DNA from: Pseudorhodoferax aquiterrae
GTDB lineage: Bacteria > Pseudomonadota > Gammaproteobacteria > Burkholderiales > Burkholderiaceae_C
NCBI RefSeq assembly: GCF_014652235.1
Contig: NZ_BMYK01000011.1
Location: forward strand, 23,473 to 87,472
Length of the DNA: 64,000 nt
Direction of reading: 5' to 3'
The notes beneath the pieces were generated by a model. The model ran no database searches. It had not been told where the DNA came from and was given only the letters and a program-made list of their open reading frames with translations. A program made the translations under genes and the position numbers. How positions within the stretch are numbered: the stretch's first letter is position 1; every line of letters begins with the position of its first letter. Shown here one piece after another: positions 44,660 through 63,848 of this stretch.

Positions 44660-44684
44660 TGACACGGGTTAACCACCCGTGTCA
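44660..44684. promoter_or_regulatory. 25-bp inverted repeat upstream of ftsH
   Basis: TGACACGGG (44660-44668) and CCCGTGTCA (44676-44684) are perfect complements around TTAACCA. A TAAAAT -10-like hexamer lies at 44700-44705, so the repeat covers the expected -35. No T run follows. It may be an operator, or a weak rlmE terminator. Confidence 0.5.
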
Positions 44685-48996: not shown

Positions 48997-49036
48997 GCGT
49001 CACGAAGCTGCCATCGGCGCGACATGCGCCGGTCAC
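48997..49036 (+). promoter_or_regulatory. tandem PhoB-box-like heptamers upstream of olsB
   Basis: Four heptamers separated by 4 bases, an 11-bp period: GCGTCAC (48997-49003), CTGCCAT (49008-49014), GCGACAT (49019-49025), CGGTCAC (49030-49036). They match the PhoB repeat CTGTCAT at 4, 6, 4 and 5 of 7 positions. The array ends 65 bp before the olsB start, a fitting position for an activator. Confidence 0.6.
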
Positions 49037-49101
49037 GGCGGCTTCGCACACTGGCTCCCGTGCGCTCCCCGGTGGGGCGCCCATGTCGCAGGAGCCAGAC
49101 C

Positions 49102-49905
49102 ATGAGAGAGTTGCCGTCCCCGGCCTACCCGCTGTCGCTGGGGCCGCGTCCTGCGCCGCCGGCATCGTCCGTGGCCGGTGGCCTGCTGGTGCGCTGGGCG
49201 CAACACCAGGACGAGGTGCGTGCCGCCCAGCGCCTGCGCTACACCGTGTTCGCGGGCGAAATGGGTGCGCGCCTGGCCACGCCGCTGGCCGGCCACGACA
49301 TCGACCTGTTCGACGATTATTGCGAGCACCTGCTGGTGGCCGATGCCGCCAGCGGCGAGGTCGTCGGCACCTACCGCGTGCTCACGCCCGTGCAGGCGCG
49401 CCGCATCGGCAGCTTCTACGCCGACACCGAGTTCGACCTGACGCGGCTGCGCCAGCTGCGCCCACGCATGATGGAACTGGGCCGCAGCTGCGTGCACCCG
49501 GGCCACCGCCAGGGCGGGGTGATCATGAGCCTGTGGTCGGCGCTGACCGGCTTCATGCAGCGCAACGGTCTGGACCTTGTGATCGGCAGCGCCAGCGTGC
49601 CGCTGCGCCAGCAGGGCGTGTTCAATCCGGCCGTGGCCGCCAGCCTGTGGCGCCGCTTGCGGATCGACCACCTCGCCCCCATCACCGAGCATGTGCTGCC
49701 GCGCCTGCCTCTGCCGGTGGAGCGGCTGGACGACAGCCTGCAGGTCGAGGCACCGCCTCTGGTCAAGGGCTATCTGCGCCTGGGCGCCAAGCTGCTCGGC
49801 CCGCCGGCCTGGGACCCGGACTTCAACACCGCCGACCTGCCGCTGCTGATGCGCTTGCAGGACATGCCGGCGCGCTACAGCCGCCATTTCGGCGGGAGCC
49901 GTTGA
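49102..49905 (+). CDS. olsB: OlsB-like L-ornithine N-alpha-acyltransferase (GNAT fold)
   Basis: 267 residues of the hemolysin/OlsB GNAT-like family: VRAAQRLRYTVFAGEMGA, FDDYCEHLLV, GTYRVLTP, ELGRSCVHPGHRQGGVIMSLW and VIGSASVPL. OlsB transfers a 3-hydroxyacyl chain from ACP to ornithine, the first step of phosphorus-free ornithine lipids. No OlsA (second acyltransferase) gene is in the window. ATG 49102 has GCAGGAG upstream. The stop overlaps plcP (TGATG). Tandem PhoB-box-like repeats precede it. Confidence 0.82.
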   Translation: MRELPSPAYPLSLGPRPAPPASSVAGGLLVRWAQHQDEVRAAQRLRYTVFAGEMGARLATPLAGHDIDLFDDYCEHLLVADAASGEVVGTYRVLTPVQARRIGSFYADTEFDLTRLRQLRPRMMELGRSCVHPGHRQGGVIMSLWSALTGFMQRNGLDLVIGSASVPLRQQGVFNPAVAASLWRRLRIDHLAPITEHVLPRLPLPVERLDDSLQVEAPPLVKGYLRLGAKLLGPPAWDPDFNTADLPLLMRLQDMPARYSRHFGGSR

Positions 49906-50777
49906 TGCGCGCGGCCTTCGACGCCGCGGGCTTGTGGCAAGGCACGCCGGATGCTGTGGAGCCCTCCGTCCCCCTGGACGCCGAGGACAGCGGCCCACCG
50001 CGCTTCCGCGCCGTCTTCATCTCCGACCTGCACCTGGGCACGCCCGGCTGCCAGGCCGGGCCGCTGCTCGAATTCCTCAAGGCCCACCCGAGCCAGCTCC
50101 TGTACCTGGTCGGCGACATCGTCGACGGCTGGCAGCTGCGCCGGCGCTGGTTCTGGCCGCAGGCCCACAACGACGTGGTGCAAAAGCTGCTGCGCCGCGC
50201 GCGCAAGGGCTGCAAGGTGGTGTTCGTGCCCGGCAACCACGATGAATTCGCGCGCGGCTTCGCCGGCCACCATTTCGGCGGCATCGAGGTGCGCGAGGAG
50301 GCCGTGCACACCACGGCCGACGGCCGGCGCCTGTGGGTCGTGCACGGCGACCACTTCGACGCCGTGATCCAGTGCGCCAAATGGCTGGCCTACCTGGGCG
50401 ACAACGCCTACGAGCTCACGCTGCGGCTGAACCGCCACCTCAACAGCCTGCGCGCGCGCATGGGGCTGCCGTACTGGTCGTTGTCGGCCTACCTCAAGCA
50501 CAAGGTCAAGAAAGCCCTCAACTACGTCACGGCCTTCGAGCAGGCCGTGGCCGCCGAGGCGCGCAAGCGCGGCTACCAGGGCGTGGTCTGCGGCCACATC
50601 CACCGCGCCGAGATGCGCGAGATCGACGGCACGCTGTACTGCAACGACGGCGACTGGGTCGAGAGCCTGAGCGCGCTCGTGGAACACCACGATGGCCGGC
50701 TCGAGCTCGTGCAGTGGCATGGCGCCCACCAGCACCCGGTGCGGACCCCGGCCGCGGCGCAGTCGGCCCCGGTCTGA
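49905..50777 (+). CDS. PlcP-like metallophosphoesterase (often named UDP-diacylglucosamine diphosphatase)
   Basis: 290 residues of the calcineurin-like fold with the five metal motifs: FISDLHLG, LVGDIVDGW, VPGNHDEFARG, VVHGDHFDA and CGHIHRAEM. E. coli LpxH is ~240 residues with GNRDF and a GDLFE-type second motif; this protein instead shows RRRWFWPQAHNDVVQKLLRR and GDWVESLSALVEHHDGR, as in Sinorhizobium PlcP, which releases diacylglycerol from phospholipids during phosphate starvation. Coupling to olsB supports that role. A lipid A role cannot be excluded, and no other LpxH candidate is in the window. Confidence 0.8.
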   Translation: MRAAFDAAGLWQGTPDAVEPSVPLDAEDSGPPRFRAVFISDLHLGTPGCQAGPLLEFLKAHPSQLLYLVGDIVDGWQLRRRWFWPQAHNDVVQKLLRRARKGCKVVFVPGNHDEFARGFAGHHFGGIEVREEAVHTTADGRRLWVVHGDHFDAVIQCAKWLAYLGDNAYELTLRLNRHLNSLRARMGLPYWSLSAYLKHKVKKALNYVTAFEQAVAAEARKRGYQGVVCGHIHRAEMREIDGTLYCNDGDWVESLSALVEHHDGRLELVQWHGAHQHPVRTPAAAQSAPV

Positions 50778-50840
50778 CATCGGCTTCGGCGAAAATACCG
50801 GCCCCGTCCCGTTGCGGCATGGCCGCTTTTCCCGTCCGTT

Positions 50841-51374
50841 TTGACCTGTTCCGCTTCTGTCCGTTCGCGCTGGCATGTGCGCCCCATGTCGGCCGCCGAC
50901 CTGCCCTGTGTGATGGCCATCCAGGCCGAGGCCTACGCCGCCGCCGACTTCGCACCCGAGCAACCCGCCGTCTTTCGTGACCGCATGGCGCTGGCGCCGG
51001 CCCTGTGCCTGGTGGCCTGCGATGCGGCCGGCGCCGTGCTCGGCTATCTGCTGTCCCACCCCTGGCTGGAGGCTGCGCCGCCAGCCCTGCACAGCGCGCT
51101 CGGCCGCTTGCCGGCGGCCGCCAGCTGCTGGTATCTGCACGACTGCGCCGTGGCCGCGCGGGCCCATGGCCAGGGCATGGCGGCCGTGCTGTACGCCCGG
51201 GCCCTGGCGCAGGCGCGCGCCCAGGGCCTGGTCCAGGGTGCCCTGGTGGCCGTGGGCGGCGCGGCAGGCTACTGGCGGCGGCTGGGCTACGCGACGCGCG
51301 ACCTGGGCGCAGGCCAGTCCAAGCTCGCGGCCTACGGCCCCGGCGCGGCTTACATGGTGCGCGCGCTGGACTAA
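50841..51374 (+). CDS. GNAT-family N-acetyltransferase
   Basis: About 177 residues. The first strand [15 protein letters not shown], the core [21 protein letters not shown] with the acetyl-CoA loop ([10 protein letters not shown]), and [11 protein letters not shown] define the fold. TTG 50841, GTG 50877 and ATG 50886 are in frame; the ATG would cut into the first strand, so an upstream start is preferred. Substrate unknown. Its stop overlaps the convergent chemoreceptor stop by two bases. Confidence 0.78.
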
Positions 51375-53008
51375 GCGGGCAGGGCGGCGGCCGCTGGCAG
51401 CGCGGGTGCCTGGCTGCGCCGTGGCGCCGCACTGACCGGCTGCAGGGCCGCCGCGGGCGCACTGGCCTGGAACACGCCGATCGCATCGAGCAGCTGGCGC
51501 GCCTGGGCGCGCAGGCCGCTCGCGGCCTCGCGCGCATGGCCCACCATCGCGGCGTTCTGCTGGGTCATCCGGTCGAGCTCCGTCACCGCCACGTTGACCT
51601 GGTCGATGCCCTGCGACTGCTCGCGGGCCGAGGCGCCGATCTCCTGGATCAGGTCGGCCACCTTGCCCACCTGCTGCACGATGTCCTGCATGGCCGCGCC
51701 CGCATCGCGCACCTGCTGGTTGCCGCTGTCCACCTGCTCGCTGCTGTTGTGGATGAGCTTGCCGACCTCCTTGGCCGCCTGGGCGCTGCGCTGGGCCAGC
51801 GCCCGCACCTCGGCCGCCACCACCGCGAAACCGCGGCCCTGCTCGCCCGCACGTGCCGCCTCCACCGCGGCATTGAGCGCCAGGATGTTGGTCTGGAACG
51901 CGATGCCGTCGATCACGCCGATGATGTCGCGGATCTTGCTGCTGGCCGCCGTGATGGCGTCCATGGTCTGCACCACCTGCCCGATCACGGCGCCGCCCTG
52001 GCGCGCGGCCGCGCTCGCGGTGCCGGCCAGGCCCACGGCCTGCGCCGCGGCGCTGGCGCTGGCCTTCACCGTGGCCGTCATCTGCTCCATCGAGGCCGCG
52101 GTCTGCTGCAGGCTGGAGGCCGCCTGTTCGGTGCGCGCGCTCAGGTCCTGGTTGTCACGCGAGATCCCCTGGCTGGCCTGCTCCACGCCCGCCACCTGCT
52201 GGCCCACGTCGTCCACCAGCGAGCGCAGGTTCAGCCCGGCCTGGTTGACGGCGCGCAGCACCATGCCGATCTCGTCGACGCGGTCCAGGTGCACGTTCTC
52301 GCCCGGGCTGCCGGAGGCCACGCACTGGGCCTGCTGCAGCACGCGCTGCAGCGGCCGGGCGATGCGCGCCTCCAGCCACAGCGTGGCGACGGCGCAGGCC
52401 AGGGCCACGGCTGCCGCGACGGCCTCCGGCGCCATTCCCAGACGGGGCAGCAGCGCGGCGCCGCCCACCGACACCAGCAGCACGAACAGCAAGGCAGCAC
52501 GCAGCCGCCAGCGCACGGGCATGGTCTGCGGCAGCGAGAGCCAGCGCAGCCAGCCGGTGCGCAAGACCAGGCCCTGGTGGAAGGCCCAGCCCCTGGCCTG
52601 GCCTGAACGGAAGCGCGCATACAGCGCCTCGGCCTGGGCCACCTCTTCGCGCCCGGGCTTGGTGCGCACCGACATGTAGCCCGTGGTCTGGCCGTTGCGC
52701 ACCACCGGCGTCACGTTGGCGCGCACCCAGTAGTGGTCGCCGTCCTTGCGCCGGTTCTTGACCAGGGCCGACCAGGAGCGGCCCGACTTGAGCGTGGCCC
52801 AGAGGTCGCCGAAGGCTTGCGGCGGCATGTCCGGATGCCGCACCAGGTTGTGCGGCTGGCCGATCAGCTCGTCCTGGTCGAAGCCGCTGGCCTGCACGAA
52901 CGCGGCATTGGCGTAGGTGACGTAGCTCTGCAGATCCGTGGTGGACAACAGGGTGGCGTCGTCCGGAAAGATGTACTCCTTCTGCGTCACCGGAAGATTG
53001 CTGCGCAT
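51371..53008 (-). CDS. methyl-accepting chemotaxis protein with PAS sensor (Aer-like)
   Basis: 545 residues. An N-terminal PAS domain (about 15-125, [35 protein letters not shown]) resembles the energy sensor Aer. Two hydrophobic helices (about 165-185 and 193-210) with a short turn follow, then HAMP and the signalling hairpin with [20 protein letters not shown]. No NWETF-type tail pentapeptide. The Ala/Pro-rich tail is low complexity. ATG 53008 has CAGGAG upstream. It is alone; no che genes are nearby. Confidence 0.92.
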
Positions 53009-53122
53009 CGATCGCTCCTGTCGTTCGCAAGAGTGCGCAGTATGCAAATCGAAGATCAACGATGGTCGTGTGCTGGTACTCCGTGCGACGAACGCCGTGC
53101 GCAGGCCGACAAGCGGGTGCGG

Positions 53123-54034
53123 TCAGGCAGCTCCGCCGGCCGGCCGCGGCGGCAAGTGCATCAGCGCCTGCCCCATGCGCACGCGCGCCCCACTGGCAAT
53201 GCCGTCGGCCAGCGCGAAGCCTCTGGGTGCGAACACGATGATGGTCGAGCCATGCTCGAACCAGCCCATCTCCTGTCCCTTGGCGAAGTGCTCGGCGCAG
53301 TCCACCGGCTGGCTGCCCAGCGTGCGCAGGTGCAGCAGCGTGTCCATGAAGTGCAGCCGGATGCTGGCCACGAGGATGGCCGCCACGGGCACCAGCGCAA
53401 TCGGATGGCCGCTGGCCAGCCGCATGCGCAGCACGGCGCGCTCGTTGCGGCAGAACAGCCGCTCGATGCGGCGGAGCGCGATGGGGTTGACGTTCCAGGT
53501 GTCGCCCGAGAGGTAGGTCAAGCGCTCCACCGTCCCCTCGTGCGGCGCATGGAAGCGGTGGTACATGGCCGAGGTCAGCCGCAGCGTCACGTACTGGCCG
53601 CCGTGCCAGGGGCGGGCCGCTTCCGCGTCGCCGAACAGCTCGCCGATTTCGTACGGGAAGCCCTTGGCCTGGAACACGCGCGTGCCGTCCACCGTGCCGC
53701 AGGCGCCGACGATGCCGTCGCAGGGGCTGGCCAACACACCGGGGTCCATGGCCACGGGGCGCGCACCGGGCTTCAAGGCGCGCGTGAACATGGCGTGCAG
53801 GCTCTTGAAGCGCTGCTCCTGCGCGTCCGACAGGTCGATCTCGGTGCAGGCGCGCCACACCGCGATCGAGGCGGCGCGGACCAGCGGGTTCTCGATCTGG
53901 CTGAACCAGCCCATGAAGCGCGTGAGCGCGAGCCGCGGCACGCGGTTGGTCAGCAGGAAGTTGAGGTCCTCCTGCAGCAGCAGGCGGTCGCGCAGGCGGG
54001 CGAGGGCGGATGGGGTGGCGGTGGTCTGCGTCAT
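53123..54034 (-). CDS. psd: phosphatidylserine decarboxylase
   Basis: 303 residues. Motifs include ASPCDGIVGACG, KGFPYEIGELFGD, RLTSAMYHRFHAPHEGTVE and the self-cleavage site WFEHGSTIIVFAP, where the Gly-Ser bond gives the pyruvoyl cofactor. The usual LGST is HGST here, which keeps the Gly-Ser pair. It produces phosphatidylethanolamine, the main phospholipid and the substrate PlcP would attack. No pssA is adjacent. Start codons are only 26 bp from the divergent aminotransferase. Confidence 0.9.
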   Translation of the reverse strand: MTQTTATPSALARLRDRLLLQEDLNFLLTNRVPRLALTRFMGWFSQIENPLVRAASIAVWRACTEIDLSDAQEQRFKSLHAMFTRALKPGARPVAMDPGVLASPCDGIVGACGTVDGTRVFQAKGFPYEIGELFGDAEAARPWHGGQYVTLRLTSAMYHRFHAPHEGTVERLTYLSGDTWNVNPIALRRIERLFCRNERAVLRMRLASGHPIALVPVAAILVASIRLHFMDTLLHLRTLGSQPVDCAEHFAKGQEMGWFEHGSTIIVFAPRGFALADGIASGARVRMGQALMHLPPRPAGGAA

Positions 54035-54060
54035 CGTGTTGACAAATGAAGGGGTTACCA

Positions 54061-55731
54061 ATGGGGGATCGCCATTTCCACGACCCCATGAACGAACTCA
54101 CTTTTCTCGGCGGCTTCGGCGCCGCGGCCGTGCTGGCGCTGCTGCCGGCAGCAGGGCAACGCCTGGCCCTGTCGCGCGCCAAACACCGCTCGCTGGCCGG
54201 CCACTCCAAGCTGTCGCGCCGCGTCGCGCGCCGGCTGCCGTTCTACGATTTCGGGCCCGAGCGCTTCTTCGCCTCGGACGGCGCACCGGCCGCCGTCGCC
54301 GCGCAGCGCGAGGCCGGCATGGCGCGGCTCGCGGCCCTGTTCGCCCAGCGCTTTCCGAAGACGCTGGCCATGACCGAGGCCGCGCGCGAAGGCATCGCCG
54401 ACCTGCAGTTCACGAGCCGCTACCGCGTGCCCTTCCAGTACAGCCGCGTGCTGCGCGAGAGCCTCAAGATGGGCGCCTTCGTCCAATCCAGCCAGGGTGT
54501 GCAGATCACCGACCTGGACGGCAACGTCTTCTACGACCTGGCCGGCTCCTACGGCGTGAACCTGTTCGGCCAGGACTTCTACAAGTCCTGCATCGCCGAG
54601 GGCAGCGCGCGCGTGCAGGACCTGGGCCCGGTGCTCGGCAGCTACCACCCGGCCGTGCTGGACAACGTGCGCACGCTGCGCCGCATCTCGGGCAAGGACG
54701 AGGTGTCCTTCCACATGTCCGGCACCGAGGCCGTGATGCAGGCGGTGCGGCTGGCGCGCTACCATACGCGGCGCACGCACATCGTGCGCTTCTGCGGTGC
54801 CTACCACGGCTGGTGGGACGACGTGCAGCCCGGCATCGGCAACCCGGTCCCCGCCGAACGCACCTACACGCTGCGCGACATGGACGCGCGCACGCTGCGC
54901 GTTCTGAAGAGCCGGCGCGACATCGCCTGCGTGCTCGTCAACCCGCTGCAGGCCCTGCACCCGAACGCCAACGCGCCCTCGGACTCGGCCCTGGTTGCCG
55001 CCCGGCCCGCGCCGGCCTTCGACCGTGCGGCCTACACCGCGTGGCTGCAGCAGCTGCGCGAAGTCTGTACCGCGCGCGGCATCGTGCTGATCTTCGACGA
55101 GGTGTTCCTGGGCTTTCGCCTGGCGCCCGGCGGCGCGCAGGAATACTTCGGCGTGCAGGCCGACATGGTCACCTACGGCAAGACCCTGGGCGGCGGCCTG
55201 CCGGTGGGCGTGGTCTGCGGCCCGCACCGGCTCATGCAGCGCTGGCGCGAGGACAAGCCGGCCGACATCTGCTTCGCACGCGGCACCTTCAATGCGCACC
55301 CCTACGTGATGGGCGCCATGCAGGTGTTTCTCGAGCGGCTGCAAGCGCCCGCGGTGCAGGCCCTGTACGAGAACCTGGACGCCACCTGGGAAGGCCGCGC
55401 CGCGCAGCTCAACGGCCTGCTCGAAGACGCGGGTCTGCCGGTGCGCGTGGGCGCCATGTCCACGGTCTGGGCCGTGGGCTTCACGCAGGCCTCGCGCTAC
55501 CACTGGATGCTGCCCTACTACCTGCGTGCGCAGGGCCTGGCGCTGAGCTGGGTCGGCACGGGCCGGTTGATCTTCAGCCTGAACTACGGCGATACCGAGT
55601 TCGCCGAGGTGGCGCGCCGCTTCGTGGCCGGTTGCCAGGCCATGCAGGCCGATGGCTGGTGGTGGCAGGACGCGGGCTTGACGAAGAAGGCGATCCAACG
55701 CCGCATCCTGCGGGAGATGTTGGGGCGCTGA
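54061..55731 (+). CDS. class III PLP aminotransferase with N-terminal hydrophobic segment
   Basis: About 556 residues. After a short lead is a hydrophobic helix (ELTFLGGFGAAAVLALLP), then a basic region and a glutamate-1-semialdehyde-aminotransferase-like domain: FHMSGTEAVMQAVRLARYHT, RFCGAYHGWWDD, LIFDEVFLGFR, and PLP Lys in VTYGKTLGGGLPVG. The helix would tether it to the membrane. ATG 54061 has AAGGGG upstream; ATG 54088 (MNELTFLGG) may be the family start. Divergent pairing with psd suggests an amino-group reaction in lipid or envelope metabolism, but the substrate is unknown. Confidence 0.85.
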   Translation: MGDRHFHDPMNELTFLGGFGAAAVLALLPAAGQRLALSRAKHRSLAGHSKLSRRVARRLPFYDFGPERFFASDGAPAAVAAQREAGMARLAALFAQRFPKTLAMTEAAREGIADLQFTSRYRVPFQYSRVLRESLKMGAFVQSSQGVQITDLDGNVFYDLAGSYGVNLFGQDFYKSCIAEGSARVQDLGPVLGSYHPAVLDNVRTLRRISGKDEVSFHMSGTEAVMQAVRLARYHTRRTHIVRFCGAYHGWWDDVQPGIGNPVPAERTYTLRDMDARTLRVLKSRRDIACVLVNPLQALHPNANAPSDSALVAARPAPAFDRAAYTAWLQQLREVCTARGIVLIFDEVFLGFRLAPGGAQEYFGVQADMVTYGKTLGGGLPVGVVCGPHRLMQRWREDKPADICFARGTFNAHPYVMGAMQVFLERLQAPAVQALYENLDATWEGRAAQLNGLLEDAGLPVRVGAMSTVWAVGFTQASRYHWMLPYYLRAQGLALSWVGTGRLIFSLNYGDTEFAEVARRFVAGCQAMQADGWWWQDAGLTKKAIQRRILREMLGR

Positions 55732-55746
55732 ACTGCGGGGGCCTGC

Positions 55747-56352
55747 TCAGCGGGCCACGTCGTGCATCGGATCGATCAGCTCGCCGCGCATCAGCGCGAA
55801 CGGGCTCTTCCAGTACAGCTTGATGTCGTGGAAGGGGTCGGTCAGGATCTTGGTGGCCCAGGCCAGGCCGGCCACCACGCCTTGCAGGAAGAACAGGTGC
55901 ACGGTGCGCATCAGCACGGCGGCCACGCCCAGCGCCAGCCAGGCCAGGCCGACATGGCGCAGCCAGCCTTCGGTCCCGGCGGCCGGCTCGACCAGTCCGA
56001 ACAGGTCGGGCTGCAGCCAGAGCAGCAGCGGCACGGCCACCCACAGCAGCATCAGCACCACCTTGCGGCGCAGGTTGTAGCCGACCTTGATCTCTTCCTT
56101 GTAGGCGTGCGTGGCCTGGTTCACATGGTCGTAGCCCTTGGGCTCGAAGAAGAAGTGGCCCGCCTGGCGGCTGGTCATGGCCACGGTCCAGGCCAGCAGG
56201 GCGGCCGCGGCCGGGTCGACGAACAGCAGCACGTAGCTGCACACGAAGGTGCAGGCCGACAGCAGGTGCAGGCTCTGGTTGATGCGGCTGTGGTGGTAGT
56301 AGCGGTGGTCGTCGTCGCGCTGGACCTGGACCGTCCGGAAGAAGTCGTGCAT
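55747..56352 (-). CDS. integral membrane protein of unknown function
   Basis: 201 residues. The N-terminus is cytoplasmic and charged (HRYYHHSRINQSLHLLSA), then about four hydrophobic helices (around 35-50, 55-70, 95-112, 135-165). HHSRINQSLH and RQAGHFFFEPKGYD are His-rich and would suit metal binding; the pattern recalls Mpo1-type membrane dioxygenases, but I cannot confirm it. ATG 56352 has GGGGGTG upstream. It converges on the aminotransferase gene and has PhoB-like heptamers upstream. Confidence 0.75.
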   Translation of the reverse strand: MHDFFRTVQVQRDDDHRYYHHSRINQSLHLLSACTFVCSYVLLFVDPAAAALLAWTVAMTSRQAGHFFFEPKGYDHVNQATHAYKEEIKVGYNLRRKVVLMLLWVAVPLLLWLQPDLFGLVEPAAGTEGWLRHVGLAWLALGVAAVLMRTVHLFFLQGVVAGLAWATKILTDPFHDIKLYWKSPFALMRGELIDPMHDVAR

Positions 56353-56394
56353 GGGCACCCCCGTTGTCATGTGGCGCGATCGTGACGACCGCGC

Positions 56395-56412
56395 ATGAAG
56401 CACTGATGACAG
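56395..56412 (-). promoter_or_regulatory. PhoB-box-like heptamers upstream of the membrane protein
   Basis: On the minus strand CTGTCAT (56406-56412), a perfect PhoB heptamer, is followed after 4 bases by GCTTCAT (56395-56401). A third repeat at the right step is poor (GGTCGTC), although TCGTCAC overlaps it out of register. Confidence 0.45.
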
Positions 56413-56422
56413 GGGGCCGCGC

Positions 56423-57016
56423 TCAGCGGCTGCGCGAACGCCGCTCGGCGCTGGCCGCGTCGGCGCAGGCGCCGGCCCACTGCGCGACCTGCTGCGCGCT
56501 GGCCGGGACCATGCCGAACAGCAGGCGGTAGATGATGGGAGCGACGAGCCGGTCCATCACGTCCTCCACCGTGGGCACGGCCTCGCCGCGTGCCGCACCG
56601 CGCTGCACCAGCACCGACACCACGCCGGCCGTGAACTGCGCGCACTGGCAGCTGCCGGCGGCCTCGCCGCGGCCGGCCGAGGCCACCACGTCGCGCAGCA
56701 TGGCCTGCCCGACCTCGGACGACATCTCCTCGTGGAACTGCTCGGCCCATGCCAGCAGGTCACCGCGGAAGCTGCCCGTGTCCGCCGGCTCGCCCTCGGG
56801 GCGCATGCGCGCGACCGAGACGTCGGCCATCAGCTCGGCCAGATCGCCCCAGCGCCGGTAGATGGTGGACGGCGTGACGCCCGCGCGTGCCGCGATCAGC
56901 GGCACGGTCAGCGCCTCGCGACCGTGCTGCTCGATCAGCTCGCGCGTGGCCTGGTGGACGGCGGCCTGCACGCGCGCGCTGCGCCCGCCGGGCCGAAGAG
57001 TGGGGCGTGGAGGCAT
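56423..57016 (-). CDS. TetR/AcrR-family repressor
   Basis: 197 residues. Helix-turn-helix region: VHQATRELIEQHGREALTV, then IAARAGVTPSTIYRRWGDLAELM. The C-terminal ligand domain has a SCQC motif and is typical in length. It is divergent from an MFS transporter gene with 89 bp between starts, the usual layout for a TetR repressor of an efflux pump. Confidence 0.93.
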   Translation of the reverse strand: MPPRPTLRPGGRSARVQAAVHQATRELIEQHGREALTVPLIAARAGVTPSTIYRRWGDLAELMADVSVARMRPEGEPADTGSFRGDLLAWAEQFHEEMSSEVGQAMLRDVVASAGRGEAAGSCQCAQFTAGVVSVLVQRGAARGEAVPTVEDVMDRLVAPIIYRLLFGMVPASAQQVAQWAGACADAASAERRSRSR

Positions 57017-57027
57017 GGAACGATCTT

Positions 57028-57094
57028 AACGCAAAGGGTTTGCTTTATGGGTCGGTCCGGTGCACAATGGCATAAACGCTATTTCTTTGCGTTT
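57028..57094. promoter_or_regulatory. divergent promoter and operator, TetR / MFS
   Basis: TTGCTT (57040-57045), a 17-base spacer and CACAAT (57063-57068) form a rightward promoter. AACGCAAAG (57028-57036) recurs as its complement CTTTGCGTT (57086-57094), and AAACGC (57074-57079) with GCGTTT (57089-57094) is an inverted repeat at the expected start of transcription. These are candidate TetR sites. Confidence 0.55.
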
Positions 57095-57105
57095 GGAAAG
57101 TTCGC

Positions 57106-58314
57106 ATGTCCATCCCGCATCCCGCCACGACGCCATCGCCGCGCCAACCCCTGGCGCCCCGCGCTGCGCTGTGGTGGACGGCCGCGATGATGGTCACCTT
57201 TCTGGCCGCGTCCAGCGCGCCGTCGCCGCTGTACGCGCTGTACCGCGAGGCCTGGGGCTTCTCGGCGTTCGTGCTGACCTGGGTGTTCGGCAGCTACGCG
57301 TTCGCGCTGCTGGCGGCCTTGCTGATGTTCGGCCGGCTGTCGGACCATCTGGGCCGGCGGCGCGTGATCGTCGGCGCACTGGTGCTGGAGTTCCTTTCCG
57401 TCGTGCTGTTCTGGCAGGCCGAGTCGGTGGCCTGGCTGTTGGCGGCCCGCATCCTGCAGGGCGTGGCCACGGGCATCGCCACGAGCGCGCTGAGTTCCAT
57501 GCTGCTCGACCTGAGCCCCCTGCGCGCCTCGGTGATGAACGGTGTCGCGCCGATGGTGGGCATGGCCCTGGGCGCCGTGGGCACGGCGGCGCTGGTGCAG
57601 TTCGCGCCGGCGCCCACGCGGCTGGTCTACGAAGTGCTGCTGGTGATGCTGGCCGTGCAGGTCGCGATGGCGCTGCGCCTGCCCGACACGGTGCCGCGCC
57701 GTGCCGGTGCCTGGGCCTCGCTGCGGCCGCAGATGGCGGTGCCGCCCGCGGCGCGCGGCGCCTTGCAGCGCCTGCTGCCGGCCAACACGGTGGGCTGGGC
57801 GCTGATGGGCTTCTTCCTGTCGCTGGGGCCGACGCTCGCGCGCCAGGTGACCGGCAATGCCGCCCCCCTCACAGGCGGTGCGCTGATCGCGGCCATGGTG
57901 TTGCCGGGAGCGCTGGCCAGCGTGGCCATGCAGCACCGGCCGGCTGCGCTGGCCCTGGCCTTCGGTGCCAACGGACTGACGCTGGGCATGGTGCTGGCGC
58001 TGGCCGGCGTGCACACGCATGCGCCGGTGGCGTTCTTCGCAGGCGCCCTGGTGGCCGGCTTCAGCATGGGCTGTAGCTTCAGCGGCGCGCTGCGCACGCT
58101 GGCGCCGCTGGCATCGCCGCAGCAGCGCGCCGGCCTCATGGCCAGCTTCTTCGTGTGCAGCTACCTCGCGTTCAGCATCCCGGCCCTGCTGGCAGGGCTC
58201 TCGACCGGCTGGTTCGGCCTGCACCAGACCGCGCTGGGCTACGGCGCGGCGCTGCTGGCGCTCGCGCTGGTGGCGGCACTCGGCACGCGTGCCCTGGTGG
58301 CCGCGAAGGCCTAA
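57106..58314 (+). CDS. major facilitator superfamily transporter
   Basis: 402 residues with 12 predicted hydrophobic segments. The loop 2-3 signature is FGRLSDHLGRRRVIVGA. Other cues are RILQGVATGIATSALSSMLL and the internal repeat beginning near LLPANTVGWALMGFFLS. Resembles drug- or metabolite-efflux MFS proteins. Likely repressed by the divergent TetR protein. Substrate unknown. Confidence 0.92.
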   Translation: MSIPHPATTPSPRQPLAPRAALWWTAAMMVTFLAASSAPSPLYALYREAWGFSAFVLTWVFGSYAFALLAALLMFGRLSDHLGRRRVIVGALVLEFLSVVLFWQAESVAWLLAARILQGVATGIATSALSSMLLDLSPLRASVMNGVAPMVGMALGAVGTAALVQFAPAPTRLVYEVLLVMLAVQVAMALRLPDTVPRRAGAWASLRPQMAVPPAARGALQRLLPANTVGWALMGFFLSLGPTLARQVTGNAAPLTGGALIAAMVLPGALASVAMQHRPAALALAFGANGLTLGMVLALAGVHTHAPVAFFAGALVAGFSMGCSFSGALRTLAPLASPQQRAGLMASFFVCSYLAFSIPALLAGLSTGWFGLHQTALGYGAALLALALVAALGTRALVAAKA

Positions 58315-58318
58315 CCCT

Positions 58319-58358
58319 GCGACACCGAACTGCCATGGCAGCGTCACGCCGCTGACTT
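58319..58358 (+). promoter_or_regulatory. tandem PhoB-box-like heptamers upstream of the glycosyltransferase pair
   Basis: Four heptamers at an 11-bp period: GCGACAC (58319-58325), CTGCCAT (58330-58336), GCGTCAC (58341-58347), CTGACTT (58352-58358). CTGCCAT and GCGTCAC are the same words seen upstream of olsB. The array ends 22 bp before the ATG. Confidence 0.6.
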
Positions 58359-58380
58359 GCGCGGCTCGCAGCATGGCGGC

Positions 58381-59625
58381 ATGCCGCACGCCGAGCCCAT
58401 CCCCATCATCGTGGACGAGTTCGCGCCGGCACGGCGTGCGCTGCGTCTGGCCTTCGTCACCGAAACCTACCCGCCCGAGGTCAACGGCGTGGCGGCCACC
58501 ATCGCCTGCGTGGTGCAGGGCCTGCGCGCGCGCGGCCACCAGGTGCAGCTGGTGCGCCCGCGCCAGGATGCCGCCGATGCGGCCGAAGCGCCCAGCGCCG
58601 AGGTGCTGATGCGCGGCCTGCCGATCCCGCGCTACCCGCACCTCAAGATGGGCCTGCCTGCGACGCGCGCACTGCAGCGGCTGTGGACGCTGGCGCGGCC
58701 CGACGTGGTGCACATCGTGACGGAGGGGCCGCTGGGCTGGTCGGCCTTGCAGGCCGCGCGCAAGCTGCGCCTGCCCGTGAGCTCGGACTTCCGCACCAAC
58801 TTCCATGCCTACGGCCAGCACTACGGCCTGGGCTGGCTGCACAAGCCGCTGATGGCCTACCTGCGCAAGTTCCACAACCGCTGCGACCTGACCATGGTGC
58901 CCACCGAGTCGCTGCGCCAGCAGCTCGCGGCCCAGGGCCTGGAGCGCCTGCGCGTGGTGGCGCGCGGCGTGGACGCCCAGCGCTTCGACCCGGCGCGCCG
59001 CAGCACCGCGCTGCGCGCGCAGTGGGGCGCAGGCCCCGACACGCCCGTGGTGCTGCACGTGGGCCGGCTCGCGCCCGAGAAGAACCTCGGCCTGCTGCTG
59101 CAGGCCGTGCAGGCCATGCGCCGCATCGACCCGCGCGTGCGCCTGGTCATGGTGGGCGACGGGCCGCTGCGTGCCGAACTGGAACGCAGCTGCGCGGGCC
59201 AGGGCGTGGTGTTCGCCGGCGCGCGGCGCGACGACGACCTGGCCACGCACTACGCCTCGGGCGACATCTTCCTGTTCCCGAGCGTGACCGAGACCTTCGG
59301 CAACGTGACACCCGAGGCCATGGCCAGCGGCCTGGCGGTGCTGGCCTACGGCTACGCGGCGGCGGCCCAGCTCGTCACCGAGGGCGAGAGCGGCCTGCTG
59401 GCGCCCCTGGAGCAGCCGGCGCAGTTCATCGCCCAGGCCGAGCGGCTGGCGCGCGACCGGGCCCTCGTGCAGCGGCTGCGGCTGCAGGCGCGTGCCGCCG
59501 CCGTGGCGCTGGCCTGGCCGCAGATCGTGGGCGAGCTCGAATCGACCTTCGAGGCCCTGGCGCGCCAGGGCCAGTCCGGCGTGCGCGCGGCGACCGCCGC
59601 GCGTGCCGTGGCCGGCCTGCCATGA
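58381..59625 (+). CDS. GT4-family glycosyltransferase (probable diacylglycerol glycosyltransferase)
   Basis: 414 residues of the GT-B fold. The N-terminal acceptor domain has FVTETYPPEVNGVAATI, and the C-terminal donor domain has VVLHVGRLAPEKNLGLLLQA and the EX7E element in FPSVTETFGNVTPEAMASG. The family includes MgtA/Agt enzymes that put a sugar on lipids. It overlaps the next gene, an MGDG-synthase-like transferase, by 4 bp. A PhoB-box-like array precedes it, which would suit glycolipid synthesis in low phosphate. The sugar donor is not known. TTG 58357 is an alternative start. Confidence 0.85.
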   Translation: MPHAEPIPIIVDEFAPARRALRLAFVTETYPPEVNGVAATIACVVQGLRARGHQVQLVRPRQDAADAAEAPSAEVLMRGLPIPRYPHLKMGLPATRALQRLWTLARPDVVHIVTEGPLGWSALQAARKLRLPVSSDFRTNFHAYGQHYGLGWLHKPLMAYLRKFHNRCDLTMVPTESLRQQLAAQGLERLRVVARGVDAQRFDPARRSTALRAQWGAGPDTPVVLHVGRLAPEKNLGLLLQAVQAMRRIDPRVRLVMVGDGPLRAELERSCAGQGVVFAGARRDDDLATHYASGDIFLFPSVTETFGNVTPEAMASGLAVLAYGYAAAAQLVTEGESGLLAPLEQPAQFIAQAERLARDRALVQRLRLQARAAAVALAWPQIVGELESTFEALARQGQSGVRAATAARAVAGLP

Positions 59626-60776
59626 AGGTCCAGCTGGTCTACTTCAACGCGGGCGGTGGCCACCGCGCGGCTGCGCAGGCGCTCCAGGCCGCCTGCGTGC
59701 AGCAGCAGCGGCCCTGGGATGTGCAAGCCGTCAACCTCGTCGACGTGGTCGATCCGCAGGGCCTGTTCCAGCGCTGCACCGGGATGGCGCCCGAAGACCT
59801 CTACAACGCCCGGCTCGCGCGCGGCTGGACGCTGGGGCTGGCGCAGGAGCTCAAGCTGCTGCAGGGCCTGATCCGCATGGCCCACGGCCAGCTGTGCCAG
59901 CGGCTGGCCGCGCACTGGCGCGCGAGCCGGCCCGACCTGGTGGTCTCGCTGATCCCCAACTTCAACCGCGCGCTGGGCCAGAGCCTGGCCCAGGCCCGGC
60001 CCGGCGTGCCCTTCATGACGGTGATGACCGACATGGCCGACCACCCGCCGCATTTCTGGCGTGCCGACGGCGTGGACCAGCACCTGGTCTGCGGCACGCC
60101 GCACGCGCTGGCCCAGGCCCGTGCGGCCGGCCACGACGCGCGCCGGCTGCACCTGGTCTCGGGCATGCCCGTGCACCCGGACTTCTATGCACCGCTGGCG
60201 CTGGACCGCGCGGCCGAGCGGCGCGCCCTGGGTCTGCCCACCTCGGACACGGGCCCGCCCGTCGGCGTGGTCATGTTCGGCGGCGCCGGCTCCATGGTGA
60301 TGGAGCGCATCGCCCGGCTGCTGCCCGAGACCCCGCTGATCCTGCTGTGCGGCCACCACCGACGGCTGGCCGCGCGGCTGCGTGCGCTGCCGGCGCCGGC
60401 CCCGCGCGTGGTGCAGGGCTTCACGCGCGATGTGCGGCGCTACCTCGCGCTGGCCGATTTCTTCATCGGCAAGCCCGGCCCCGGCAGCCTGAGCGAAGCC
60501 CTGCTGATGGGACTGCCCGTGCTGACCACGCGCAACGCCTTCACCATGCCGCAGGAGCGCTACAACACCCAATGGCTCGAGGAGCAGGGCCTGGGCCTGG
60601 TGCTGCCGGGCTTCGCCGGCGTGGCCCCGGCCGTCCGCGCGCTTTGCGAACGAATGCCCGCTTACCGTGCGCGGGTTGCCCTGTTGCGGAACCGGGCTGT
60701 CTTCGAAGTGCCCGATTTGATGGCGAAATTGGTTCAACATGCACCATCCGCGGGCCATCTGCAACTGGCCGCGTGA
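59622..60776 (+). CDS. MGDG-synthase/MurG-like glycosyltransferase (GT28)
   Basis: 384 residues. The N-terminal motif YFNAGGGHRAAAQAL is the glycine-rich GGGH loop of monogalactosyldiacylglycerol synthases; later FMTVMTDMADHPPHFW, VVMFGGAGSMVMERIA and FFIGKPGPGSLSEALLMGLP form the nucleotide-sugar site. I infer that it acts on diacylglycerol or on the product of the preceding GT4 enzyme. Translational coupling (ATGA) indicates joint action. Confidence 0.85.
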   Translation: MKVQLVYFNAGGGHRAAAQALQAACVQQQRPWDVQAVNLVDVVDPQGLFQRCTGMAPEDLYNARLARGWTLGLAQELKLLQGLIRMAHGQLCQRLAAHWRASRPDLVVSLIPNFNRALGQSLAQARPGVPFMTVMTDMADHPPHFWRADGVDQHLVCGTPHALAQARAAGHDARRLHLVSGMPVHPDFYAPLALDRAAERRALGLPTSDTGPPVGVVMFGGAGSMVMERIARLLPETPLILLCGHHRRLAARLRALPAPAPRVVQGFTRDVRRYLALADFFIGKPGPGSLSEALLMGLPVLTTRNAFTMPQERYNTQWLEEQGLGLVLPGFAGVAPAVRALCERMPAYRARVALLRNRAVFEVPDLMAKLVQHAPSAGHLQLAA

Positions 60777-60781
60777 CAATG

Positions 60782-60810
60782 CCGTCACGAATTGGTCATT
60801 GGATTGACAC
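60782..60810 (+). promoter_or_regulatory. PhoB-box-like heptamers upstream of the 116-residue protein gene
   Basis: CCGTCAC (60782-60788), TGGTCAT (60793-60799) and TTGACAC (60804-60810) repeat at an 11-bp period in an AT-richer stretch. The array ends 66 bp before the TTG start. Confidence 0.5.
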
Positions 60811-60876
60811 AATTTTTGTGGGGTGGGCGGTGTCCAATCAGGGTTTGCGCTAGTCCCAAGCGCCAGGAAGACTCCG

Positions 60877-61227
60877 TTGAACGCCATCAAAGAAGCCAAG
60901 AAACTCATCGCCAAGGACCCTTTCAAACCCTCCGCCAAGACGCTGGCGGACCTGGTCCTTTCTCTCGAATCCCATGAGCCCTTCCAGCTGGAACGGCTGT
61001 ACGCGCTGCAGCTGAGCGACTTCGACCTGGCCGTGCAGATCATCAAGGAATGGCGCCTGGACCGGTACTACGCCGGCAAGGCCAAGCTGTACGACTTCGC
61101 GGTGCAGGCCAGCGCGCTGAACCAGCCCGAGCAACTGGCGGCGGCCGTGCAGCAGCAGGGCGGCGCACCGCATCCGCAGCAGGCCGGCAGCATCGCCGCC
61201 GACGCGCCGACGAACAGCCCGTCCTGA
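60877..61227 (+). CDS. small helical protein of unknown function
   Basis: 116 residues, mainly charged alpha helix: NAIKEAKKLIAKDPFKPSAK, ADLVLSLESHEPFQLERLYA, and AVQIIKEWRLDRYYAGKAK, ending in a Gln/Pro/Ala-rich disordered tail. The N-terminal LIAKDPFKPSAKTLADLVLSL appears ordered. The start is TTG 60877 with AGGAAG seven bases upstream; no ATG suits. No signal peptide or membrane segment. PhoB-box-like repeats precede it. Name by description only. Confidence 0.82.
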   Translation: MNAIKEAKKLIAKDPFKPSAKTLADLVLSLESHEPFQLERLYALQLSDFDLAVQIIKEWRLDRYYAGKAKLYDFAVQASALNQPEQLAAAVQQQGGAPHPQQAGSIAADAPTNSPS

Positions 61228-61228
61228 G

Positions 61229-62761
61229 TCAGTCCTTCTTCTTGCGCCAGAACGGCCGGGCCGCCCCGGCCAGTTCCGCGAGCGCAAGAGCGGCCTGGTG
61301 CGCGCTGTGCGGCGCCCGGGCCTGCAGCCAGCCCACCGCGAACCAGGCGCGCGGCTCCTGCTCCGCCGCCGCGCGGTAGCGCTCCAGTGCCACCACCTCG
61401 TCGTAGTACGCGCCCAGTGCATCCTGGGCGGGCTCCAGCGCGCGCGTGAACTGCGCGGCACGGCGCGGCGCGAAGCAGGCGCCCACGAACTCGGCCAGGT
61501 AACGCAGCCGCTTGAGGCGCTTGCGCAGGCTGTGGCGCGCTTCGGGCGTGAGCTTCTCGAAACCTCCGCCCTCCTTGGCCACGCGGCGGTGCAGCTTGTC
61601 CAGCCGCTTGCGCAGGTGGCGCTCTGTGTCGTGCGGCGCCAGACCCGTGCTCCGCGCTTCGGCGGCAAAGCCGACCAGGCCCACCCAGGCGGCCTGCAGG
61701 GCCGGATCGTGCAGCGCCTGTGCCGGCGTGGGCACGTCGTCGTCCTCGGGCGGCAGCACGATGACCGGGCCGCCCGCGGCCAACAGCCGTGGCTGCATGA
61801 GCGCCTGCAACTGCTGGCGGTCGCGCCGCGCACCGAGCACGCGGAAGGCCTGCACCAGCGGCGCCTCCCAGGCCGGGTCCAGCCCCGGGCCCAGCGCTGC
61901 CAGTTCGCGCAGCGCGGTGCGCAGCCGGCGCAGGCCCACGCGCAGCTGGTGGATCTGTTCGGCATCCTCGCTGCCGGCGGCGATCTCGCTCGCGTTCGGC
62001 AGGATCTGCGCGAGACAGGCGCCGACCACGGCGCGCTGCACCGTGGCGCCGTCCGGGAAGTCCTTGCCGGCCGGCCACTGCGGCGCGCTGGCCTTGACCG
62101 CCGGGCGCGTGGACTGGCCGTGCGCCAGGCGCAGGCCGCGTTCGGACTTGGTCACCGTGCTCAAGGTGAGTCCGTGGCGCGCGACCCATTCGCTGGCCAC
62201 GGCGGTGAGGTCGCGCACATCGCCTTCGAGCAGTTCGAGCTCGAGCTCGCAGACCACGGCACTGCGCGGCAGGCCGCCGTCGGGCGCGGGCGCCAGTACA
62301 CGGCCCTGGTCCAGGGCAAGCTCGATGCGGCTGGCGCCGACCTGCAGCTGCTGCGTCGCGCGCCAGATGTCGGTGCCGTAGACCTCCACCAGCGGCGTGC
62401 CGGCGCGGCACAGCACATGGTCCAGGCGGCGGCCGACGGGCGTGTCGGCGTGCCGGGCGGGATCGGCCTGCAGCGCCTGCTGTGCTTTCGATTTGCGCGC
62501 CGGCCCCAGATCCACGTTGTGCTCCAGCCGTTGCACCGGGCCATCGCCCAGAGCCTTGGCGGTCTGCACCCAGCGCGGGCCTTCCTTGCGCAGGCGCAGG
62601 GCCACGCCGTGCGCGGCCAGGTCGCCCTGCGGGGTGTCGAAGTAGCGCGCCTGCAGGTGCGTGCGCTGGCTGCCGGGGCCGCGCAGCGCGGCCTCCAGCG
62701 CGGGCAGGGCGGCGCGGGGAATGTCGAACTTGAATTCGATCTCGGTCATGGAGGAGGACAT
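61229..62761 (-). CDS. CYTH and CHAD domain protein (triphosphatase/polyphosphate-binding)
   Basis: 510 residues. The N-terminal CYTH triphosphate tunnel domain begins TEIEFKFDIP, the ExExK-like signature here reduced to EIEFKF, with ARYFDTPQGDLAAHGVALRLR. The C-terminal CHAD domain (about 245-505) shows QIHQLRVGLRRLRTALREL and HSLRKRLKRLRYLAEF with its conserved His and basic residues. CYTH proteins hydrolyse inorganic triphosphate, and CHAD binds polyphosphate. It lies 9 bp after the transporter gene, so they form an operon. The stop is adjacent to that of the small protein. Confidence 0.9.
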   Translation of the reverse strand: MSSSMTEIEFKFDIPRAALPALEAALRGPGSQRTHLQARYFDTPQGDLAAHGVALRLRKEGPRWVQTAKALGDGPVQRLEHNVDLGPARKSKAQQALQADPARHADTPVGRRLDHVLCRAGTPLVEVYGTDIWRATQQLQVGASRIELALDQGRVLAPAPDGGLPRSAVVCELELELLEGDVRDLTAVASEWVARHGLTLSTVTKSERGLRLAHGQSTRPAVKASAPQWPAGKDFPDGATVQRAVVGACLAQILPNASEIAAGSEDAEQIHQLRVGLRRLRTALRELAALGPGLDPAWEAPLVQAFRVLGARRDRQQLQALMQPRLLAAGGPVIVLPPEDDDVPTPAQALHDPALQAAWVGLVGFAAEARSTGLAPHDTERHLRKRLDKLHRRVAKEGGGFEKLTPEARHSLRKRLKRLRYLAEFVGACFAPRRAAQFTRALEPAQDALGAYYDEVVALERYRAAAEQEPRAWFAVGWLQARAPHSAHQAALALAELAGAARPFWRKKKD

Positions 62762-63796: not shown

Positions 63797-63830
63797 GGCG
63801 TCGGGCAACCGCGCATGCTGCGCCCCGCGT

Positions 63831-63848
63831 ATGTCAGCTGTGTGACGG
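63831..63848 (-). promoter_or_regulatory. two PhoB-like heptamers upstream of the CorA/ZntB-CYTH-CHAD operon
   Basis: On the minus strand CCGTCAC (63842-63848) and CTGACAT (63831-63837) are separated by 4 bases. Only two repeats are present. The element is 34 bp before the transporter start. Confidence 0.4.

Follow-up and report, generated by a model that had tools for sequence, protein, structure and literature searches.

Comparison with described lipid-remodelling systems

Pairs of the phosphoesterase PlcP with a glycosyltransferase, preceded by Pho boxes, have already been published (PMC8528852, PMC9239053), and the same holds for Pho boxes upstream of olsB in Burkholderia sensu lato (PMC7814305); these and the other comparisons with publications in this section rest on the accessible parts of the papers. 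Here we describe a block of genes in a 64-kb stretch of Pseudorhodoferax aquiterrae DNA (contig C11:23473-87472 of a 7.1-Mb genome), which is called the window and whose positions are used throughout. The block is likely to be a PhoB-controlled membrane-lipid remodelling locus. Four of its genes, which encode the phosphatidylserine decarboxylase Psd2, a class III aminotransferase (AT3), an Mpo1-like membrane protein (gene mpo), and a GT4 glycosyltransferase, are a conserved gene group found from Burkholderiales to Bradyrhizobium. An earlier note, made from the letters of this DNA, had proposed lipid remodelling at the locus and had pointed out that known systems pair PlcP with a glycosyltransferase, in agreement with the published accounts (PMC8528852, PMC9239053).

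The PlcP-Agt lipid renovation of Pseudomonas aeruginosa resembles the window in combining PlcP with two glycosyltransferases and promoter Pho boxes under phosphate stress. Both glycosyltransferases of P. aeruginosa are Agt homologues encoded at separate places, whereas the window contains a GT4 enzyme and a GT28 enzyme similar to monogalactosyldiacylglycerol (MGDG) synthase, and the accessible account does not mention a psd2/AT3/mpo module (PMC8528852). In methanotrophs, as in the window, plcP adjoins a glycosyltransferase gene, and OlsB/A are present in some of them; an aminotransferase, Psd, or Mpo1-like partner is not mentioned in what is accessible of that account (PMC9239053). Burkholderia sensu lato, a group related to that of the window, shares with it OlsB homologues with predicted Pho boxes, whereas the words PlcP and glycosyltransferase occur zero times in the accessible text (PMC7814305). 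The Agt/Pgt system of Agrobacterium tumefaciens is similar in its two glycosyltransferases, PlcP homologue, and Pho boxes before pgt and olsB; unlike in the window, the genes have separate locus tags, and a psd2/AT3/mpo module is not mentioned in the accessible part (PMC3972451).

The accessible part of a study of Variovorax under phosphorus limitation contains no mention of phosphatidylserine, glycosyltransferase, or aminotransferase (PMC12226003). The psd2/AT3/mpo/GT4 module was not found described in the open-licence literature, covered by titles and the openings of abstracts, with supplements outside the scope, and this part of the block is apparently undescribed. The earlier note had regarded the entire combination as seemingly undescribed, which agrees with the result for the module and does not apply to the PlcP-glycosyltransferase pairing and the Pho boxes before olsB, both of which are published.

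Conserved group of psd2, AT3, mpo, and GT4

The psd2 gene (53123..54034, minus strand) encodes a phosphatidylserine decarboxylase (PF02666, E 6e-57; TIGR00163, 161.5 bits against a cut-off of 111.75), one of two in the genome, the other being located on contig C4. The CDG and YHRFH stretches of the protein align to 6l06, and an HGST motif was read from the translation; we take these to be the catalytic Asp, His, and Ser motifs. Psd2 appears to be an intact enzyme that decarboxylates the head group of an amino lipid. AT3 (54088..55731, plus strand; PF00202) has an N-terminal helix, which spans residues 5–30 of the model with low confidence at residues 1–10, and through which the protein is probably anchored in the membrane. 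The nearest relative of AT3, by both profile and model, is the aminotransferase domain of mycosubtilin synthase MycA (6kfm, 6kfu), and the protein clusters with glutamate-semialdehyde and beta-transaminase enzymes, among which MycA ranks first. The MycA domain belongs to a synthase, whereas AT3 is a free-standing protein, and the window shows no synthase gene next to it. The Mpo1-like membrane protein (55747..56352, minus strand) belongs to a group in which PF06127 was matched by 8/8 members, with a best E of 1.9e-5; the copies of the window (19.8 bits), locus L145 (20.3), and L174 (23.4) score below the gathering cut-off of 24 bits. Histidines 16, 20, 29, and 66 are invariant across 28 sequences, and the protein looks like a metal-dependent oxygenase. 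The fourth member is the GT4 glycosyltransferase (58381..59625, plus strand; PF13692, PF13439). Psd and GT4 had been listed in the earlier note; AT3 and the Mpo1-like protein, which together with Psd are the most conserved partners, had gone unmentioned.

A profile scan of a collection of species genomes identified at least 591 relatives of AT3, the best 80 of which were made into loci; several of these are clipped by contig ends. Near AT3, Psd is encoded in 80 of these loci, Mpo in 78, GT4 in 71, PlcP in 16, GT28 in 7, and OlsB in 6. The two loci without Mpo are short contigs, and the GT4 counted in Bradyrhizobium loci is only about 30–34% identical to that of the window. The loci belong to Burkholderiales, Rhodocyclaceae, Zoogloea, and Sulfuricella types, and 42 are from Bradyrhizobium, Nitrobacter, and one record labelled Frankia. 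A PmtA-like methyltransferase (158.4 of 390 bits) is encoded in 41 of these 42 Bradyrhizobium-type loci, and is positioned between mpo and a more distant GT4 in the two that were read out. The genes psd, AT3, mpo, GT4, plcP, olsB, and one for a ZntB-like protein are consecutive in L134. Twenty larger regions were chosen because GT28 or GT4 was close to plcP; seven of them contain psd, AT3, mpo, and GT4 together, and in the remaining 13 none of psd, AT3, and mpo was detected. AT3 is present at E 1e-120 in 25 of 398 genomes drawn over the phylum, which represent seven families, four of them outside the class of the window. The parts of the neighbourhood, the conservation of which the earlier note had suggested looking for in Comamonadaceae, are found together far beyond that group.

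Co-occurrence was counted in 150 genomes drawn evenly from the family of the window, with kinship ignored in all counts. AT3 is present in 38 of the 150, and PlcP in 38/38 of these as against 105/150 overall (Fisher 2e-7, uncorrected for kinship). Each of the 38 contains a close orthologue of GT4, located within 4 kb of AT3 in 36, and 15 contain GT28; 18 of them have AT3 no more than 12 kb from plcP. The GT4 list behind these counts comprises 39 genomes, that is 46 minus seven with only matches of at most 50% identity, and weaker second copies of GT4 and second Agt places were left out.

Two further genes were encountered beside the GT4 of the module. Homologues of the lysophospholipid transporter LplT occur in 18 of 111 loci, and in 16 of these they adjoin GT4 (for example L073 6411-7604 and L085 13758-14966); the two that were scored are both above the family cut-off. 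GalU, a UTP-glucose-1-phosphate uridylyltransferase scoring above the cut-off, follows GT4 in one of the 111 loci (L076 13810-14760).

The group could alternatively serve salvage, in which psd2, AT3, and mpo would dismantle aminophospholipids for their phosphate, with AT3 acting, for example, as a pyridoxal-phosphate-dependent lyase on ethanolamine or serine head groups. Such a role fits the occurrence of PlcP in every AT3-bearing genome of the family and the LplT homologues described above, and class III enzymes include phospho-lyases. AT3, in contrast, groups with the transaminase-type enzymes headed by MycA, and a phospho-lyase is named in 0 of 32 AT3 profile matches at E 1e-20 or better. 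We consider salvage unlikely.

PhoB-like arrays in the window

The window was scanned with a heptamer matrix based on the Escherichia coli Pho half-site, repeated at an 11-bp step; a GNCAY pattern had been spotted by eye at the three array places before the matrix was built. The three best arrays of four half-sites in the 64 kb are at 48997..49036 (19.0 bits), between the glmM stop codon and olsB, at 60771..60810 (18.8 bits), before the 115-residue open reading frame ORF115, and at 58319..58358 (18.1 bits), upstream of GT4-GT28. All are on the plus strand, and the fourth-best array scores only 11.4 bits. The earlier note had identified these three arrays as PhoB-like heptamers at an 11-bp step preceding members on different operons. 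This description applies to olsB-plcP and GT4-GT28, whereas the third array precedes ORF115 rather than a recognisable lipid gene. The array at 58319 ends 22 bp before the start of GT4, and 14 of the 37 relatives in which the site is on the same strand have about 20–30 bp between it and the extrapolated start; such spacing would leave a transcript with hardly any leader.

Comparison of the array scores with shuffled DNA, which the earlier note had proposed, set the three arrays apart. At least one array of at least 18.0 bits occurred in 28 of 1000 dinucleotide shuffles, and three arrays occurred in 0/1000; one of 12 separate shuffles held a four-site array of 19.5 bits. The score for two half-sites shows no excess in the window, where the best value is 15.8 bits compared to shuffle maxima of 13.1–16.9. 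It was discarded as evidence inside the window because shuffles reach the same values, and the weaker sites at 54028 (plus), 56395 (minus), and 63831 (minus) therefore do not stand on score. The first of these is aimed at AT3 (54028..54045, 12.4 bits) and is under the threshold of 14 bits. The second (56395..56412, 15.5 bits, within the shuffle range) is upstream of mpo and is kept in the kin L067 (the same record as L065), L068, and L069.

The array before olsB has equivalents in L067 and L068, and the GT4-GT28 and ORF115 arrays have counterparts in L067 and L069. As a positive control, a 19.1-bit box was found 83 bp upstream of the pstS start in the same genome. Seven other loci of the genome, comprising six metallophosphoesterases and the other psd, score at most 11.8 bits. 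A phosphatase box at an eighth locus of the genome, considered as a second control (L008, 18.9 bits), is located inside a long open frame with an unsettled gene start, and was not counted.

High GC content might have produced such arrays by chance, with the lipid genes adjacent but not jointly controlled. The two-half-site scores, no higher than in shuffles, and the 19.5-bit array in one of the 12 shuffles would suit this explanation, whereas the lack of any shuffle among 1000 with three such arrays and the conservation of position and direction in relatives argue against it. Chance arrays were rejected on these two grounds, and we regard coincidence as extremely improbable.

Pho boxes in relatives

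Boxes were surveyed in 100 loci (1.88 Mb), and counts for individual genes are limited to loci long enough to hold the entire tested interval. The 4.4% of the DNA around the starts of seven block genes holds 192 sites, compared to 52 in the remainder. Ten column-permuted matrices produced 0–23 sites inside these regions and 5–53 outside, and steps of 9, 10, and 12 bp produced 6–10 sites inside. A PhoB-like site is present at AT3 in 68/87 loci, and 68/68 of these sites are aimed at AT3. In Bradyrhizobium-type loci, sites were counted in the psd/AT3 gap in 42/42, before GT4 in 21/41, and before mpo in 20/41; in the other loci, the counts are 28/37 for GT4, 31/42 for mpo, 15/34 for plcP, 7/9 for olsB, and 7/26 for GT28. 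The direction is toward the site's own gene in 7/7 cases for olsB, 14/15 for plcP, 6/7 for GT28, 37/49 for GT4, and 25/51 for mpo. The relationships of the genes, their co-conservation, and the position and direction of the boxes are direct observations of the analysis.

The OlsB-like and PlcP-like pair and the Agt of the family

The OlsB-like N-acyltransferase (49102..49905, plus strand) matches Acetyltransf_5 (PF13444, E 7e-35). OlsB models rank best for this protein, with 156.5 of 350 and 147.1 of 320 bits; because these NCBIfam equivalog cut-offs were missed, the name was kept at OlsB-like. A search of the genome for OlsA found one of five PlsC-type proteins to match OlsA models best, weakly, over a 113-residue piece (109.3 of 300 bits). 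The start of the gene for the PlcP-like protein (49905..50777, plus strand) overlaps the olsB stop codon. The protein matches PF12850 and PF00149 above the cut-off and reaches 49.5 and 39.9 bits with the LpxH equivalogs, the cut-offs of which are 134 and 190.35; judged by these matches, it is a calcineurin-like metallophosphoesterase distinct from LpxH. The name PlcP is our assumption, based on context.

In the family sample, a PlcP relative is present in 105/150 genomes (E 1e-40), an OlsB-like protein in 123/150 (1e-30), a GT28 relative in 26/150 (1e-30), and a different, Agt-like GT4 in 54/150 (1e-60). Of the 105 PlcP genomes, 43 encode an OlsB-like protein no more than 500 bp from PlcP, and 46 do so within 5 kb. 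An OlsB-like gene is also found within the 1.5-kb flank in all of the best 30 PlcP loci, which are the closest relatives and include the window and its congener; 22 of the 30 flanks contain a GT4 about 29–35% identical to that of the window. Agt is located within 2 kb of PlcP in 48/105. The earlier note had considered the joining of PlcP with ornithine-lipid and glycolipid genes unusual, which these frequencies do not support for an OlsB-like partner or for a glycosyltransferase of the Agt type. One plcP relative (G076:C15:630989-631762) has two stop codons inside the match.

The genome of the window contains no match at E 1e-60 to the plcP-adjacent Agt GT4 of the family, and a different GT4 is located 7.6 kb from plcP. 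Among the 105 PlcP genomes, a plcP-adjacent Agt is present in 5/38 with AT3 as against 43/67 without AT3 (Fisher 5e-7, uncorrected for kinship), which leaves 33/38 AT3-bearing genomes without it. We read these co-occurrence counts as the GT4 of the module taking over the job of Agt, and the GT4 of the window may still work like the plcP-adjacent enzyme.

GT4 and GT28 glycosyltransferases

The best NCBIfam models for GT4 are lipid glycosyltransferases, matched below the cut-off, and no match was found among structure sequences at 1e-15. The start of the GT28 gene (59622..60776, plus strand) overlaps the GT4 stop codon, and the match of its product to PF06925 is marginal (25.8 bits against a cut-off of 25). 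The two structure matches of GT28 are to MGD1 (4wyi, E 4e-21) and to a processive diacylglycerol glucosyltransferase. Of the 26 family genomes with GT28, 18 have its gene no more than 3 kb from plcP, and 20 have it no more than 12 kb away. ORF115 (60880..61227, plus strand), the small protein behind the third array, has no Pfam or NCBIfam match.

Both glycosyltransferases might act instead on a polysaccharide or lipopolysaccharide precursor of the envelope, with their proximity to plcP reflecting shared phosphate control only. GT4 also matches many glycan glycosyltransferase models below the cut-off, and its lack of a structure match agrees with this possibility. Opposed to it are the two structure matches of GT28, to MGDG synthase and the diacylglycerol glucosyltransferase, the short distance between GT28 and plcP in 18/26 genomes, and the anticorrelation of AT3 and its GT4 with the plcP-adjacent Agt. 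A role in envelope glycans appears quite improbable to us, more so than salvage.

Distant loci

In the distant loci L171, L172, L173, L174, and L181, AT3, a GT4-type match, Psd, and Mpo are encoded in this order on one strand. A large open reading frame of 893–958 residues is positioned between AT3 and Psd in L171 (5608-8484), L172 (2344-5025), and L174 (3674-6355), and in L171 and L174, the two that were scanned, it ends with a Pfam GT4 domain. The N-terminal half of these proteins contains PHP-like motifs noticed by eye: HxH, NHN, and DDH are invariant in the three sequences, and we presume them to be PHP phosphoesterase motifs. A PHP domain was found neither in Pfam nor, with a profile, in structure sequences; with NCBIfam, L174 gave only weak PHP-type matches (best E 2e-5; 24.1 bits against a cut-off of 80), whereas L172 gave none.

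L174 continues with OlsF, which is above the curated cut-off (816 of 620 bits) and has an 87% relative in L173. In L172, mpo is followed by the gene for a nucleotide-sugar dehydrogenase that scores highest with a UDP-glucose dehydrogenase model (656.9 of 757 bits) and passes the subfamily cut-off. Comparable dehydrogenases with best models of the same kind adjoin GT28 in L050, L060, and L110. By their family assignments, OlsF and the nucleotide-sugar dehydrogenases fit a glycolipid and an ornithine lipid being made from the same neighbourhood. A site of at least 14 bits is present close before a module gene in 6 of the 11 distant loci (L172, L173, L176, L179, L180, and L181). The L179 site in the psd/AT3 gap is on the strand of psd, and the site of L174 faces the opposite way. 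L171, L175, L177, and L178 have no site near the module among the five best of each locus.

Organization of the block and neighbouring genes

The OlsB-like, PlcP-like, Psd, GT4, and MGDG-synthase-like GT28 genes are all encoded within 12 kb, as the earlier note had described (PF13444, PF00149/PF12850, PF02666, PF06925). The gene order is glmM, olsB-like and plcP-like, GNAT, MCP (on the opposite strand), psd (minus), AT3, mpo (minus), TetR (minus), MFS, GT4 and GT28, and ORF115, followed on the minus strand by the CYTH-CHAD and ZntB-like genes. The labels TetR, CYTH-CHAD, and ZntB-like were assigned by eye, without a domain scan. Among the matches listed, the closest named kin by aminotransferase are Variovorax boronicumulans DE0202 (name as deposited; 97%), Pseudorhodoferax sp. 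Leaf274 (94%), and P. soli (93%).

The position of the block directly after glmM, to which the earlier note had drawn attention, is confirmed for the window and, among the loci examined, limited to it and two close kin. It was dismissed as meaningful, with adjacency in only 2 of the best 80 AT3 loci, both close kin, and among PlcP loci only in the window and its congener. The GNAT acetyltransferase (50886..51374, plus strand; PF00583) is restricted to close kin among the loci examined. GNAT, MCP, TetR, MFS, and CYTH-CHAD were rejected as members of the block, with no Pho site nearby in 3, 7, 3, 3, and 4 loci, respectively; GNAT, TetR, and MFS were encountered in kin only, and matches to MCP and CYTH-CHAD are scattered elsewhere.

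The protein read as CYTH-CHAD (61229-62761, minus strand) adjoins the block and has no Pho site near it in four relatives; CHAD domains are linked to polyphosphate. The top two-half-site box of the window (63831-63848, minus strand, 15.8 bits, within the shuffle range) precedes the ZntB-like gene (62771-63808, minus strand) and is also present in two of three relatives with this gene; a metal transporter within the phosphate response would be of interest. Near the ftsH start, a weak PhoB-like site is present at 44679 of the window (minus strand, 13.1 bits) and at 595 of the congener L067 (minus strand, 15.5 bits).

Proposed mechanism and its weighing

Gene content, neighbourhoods, and the Pho boxes in relatives agree with remodelling of membrane lipids under PhoB; of the earlier argument, the supposed rarity of the PlcP/OlsB pairing has to be given up. 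From the observations we infer a response to phosphate through PhoB, together with the reactions and the product of psd2, AT3, and mpo set out below. When phosphate is exhausted, phosphorylated PhoB would bind the arrays and switch on three gene sets. In the first, which is of a known kind, PlcP would cut phospholipids into diacylglycerol and a released head group that carries the phosphate, and the OlsB-like enzyme would start phosphate-free ornithine-type lipids. In the second, GT4 would add a sugar, probably glucose or glucuronate from UDP-sugars, to diacylglycerol, and GT28 would extend it; this set would replace the Agt that adjoins plcP in many other genomes of the family. The third, apparently undescribed, consists of psd2, AT3, and mpo travelling with a GT4. 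AT3, probably membrane-anchored, would most likely aminate a beta-keto-acyl-type lipid substrate, and Psd2, AT3, and the Mpo1-like protein together would probably make or tailor an amino lipid for phosphate starvation.

A more specific proposal, which we offer tentatively and hold to be no likelier than salvage, is that psd2, AT3, and mpo, together with the PmtA-like methyltransferase of Bradyrhizobium, constitute a so far undescribed pathway to a phosphate-free amino lipid. The Mpo1-like protein would make a keto group, AT3 would aminate it, and Psd2 would decarboxylate an amino-acid head group for the methyltransferase to methylate; the resulting lipid would replace phosphatidylethanolamine or phosphatidylcholine in phosphate starvation.

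Several observations weigh against a PhoB-controlled remodelling locus. The scan matrix derives from an E. coli consensus, and the OlsB, GT4, and Mpo assignments are all under curated cut-offs. The AT3 site is sub-threshold not only in the window but also in the kin L065, L067, L068, and L069, which leaves PhoB control of AT3 no more than possible within this genus, and our confidence is reduced for this reason. Outside the Bradyrhizobium-type loci, a psd/AT3-gap site occurs in only 26/45 loci (1.8 expected from random windows); none of the 68 gap sites is aimed at psd, and the PmtA-like methyltransferase of Bradyrhizobium has a Pho site in 0/41 loci. Steps of 8, 13, and 14 bp are also enriched, with 43, 51, and 55 sites inside the tested regions versus 32, 27, and 51 outside. 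The relatives are not independent, as 42 of the 100 surveyed loci are of Bradyrhizobium/Nitrobacter type. The box counts are not independent either, because psd and AT3 share a gap, mpo and GT4 often share another, L065 and L067 are duplicates, and Bradyrhizobium is oversampled. In 20 of the 38 AT3 genomes of the family, AT3 and PlcP are more than 12 kb apart or lie on different contigs, and no more than 11 of the 38 have an OlsB-like gene within 5 kb of PlcP. P. soli (L068) contains olsB-plcP, psd, AT3, and mpo, but the 10 kb that follow AT3 hold neither GT4 nor GT28, and Leaf274 (L069) contains AT3, mpo, GT4, GT28, and ORF115 with no olsB-plcP within 10 kb before AT3. Therefore, besides the window, the whole block in the same order is known, among the loci examined, only from the congener DE0202 (L065/L067).

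Biological meaning

Swapping of membrane lipids in phosphate starvation shapes the life of bacteria in poor soils and waters. The remodelling proposed here predicts the production of glycolipids in PlcP bacteria that lack a plcP-adjacent Agt. The module with its PhoB-like boxes, kept together in groups as far apart as Burkholderiales and Bradyrhizobium, points to a lipid step outside the published accounts examined, and AT3 above all provides a gene handle on it.

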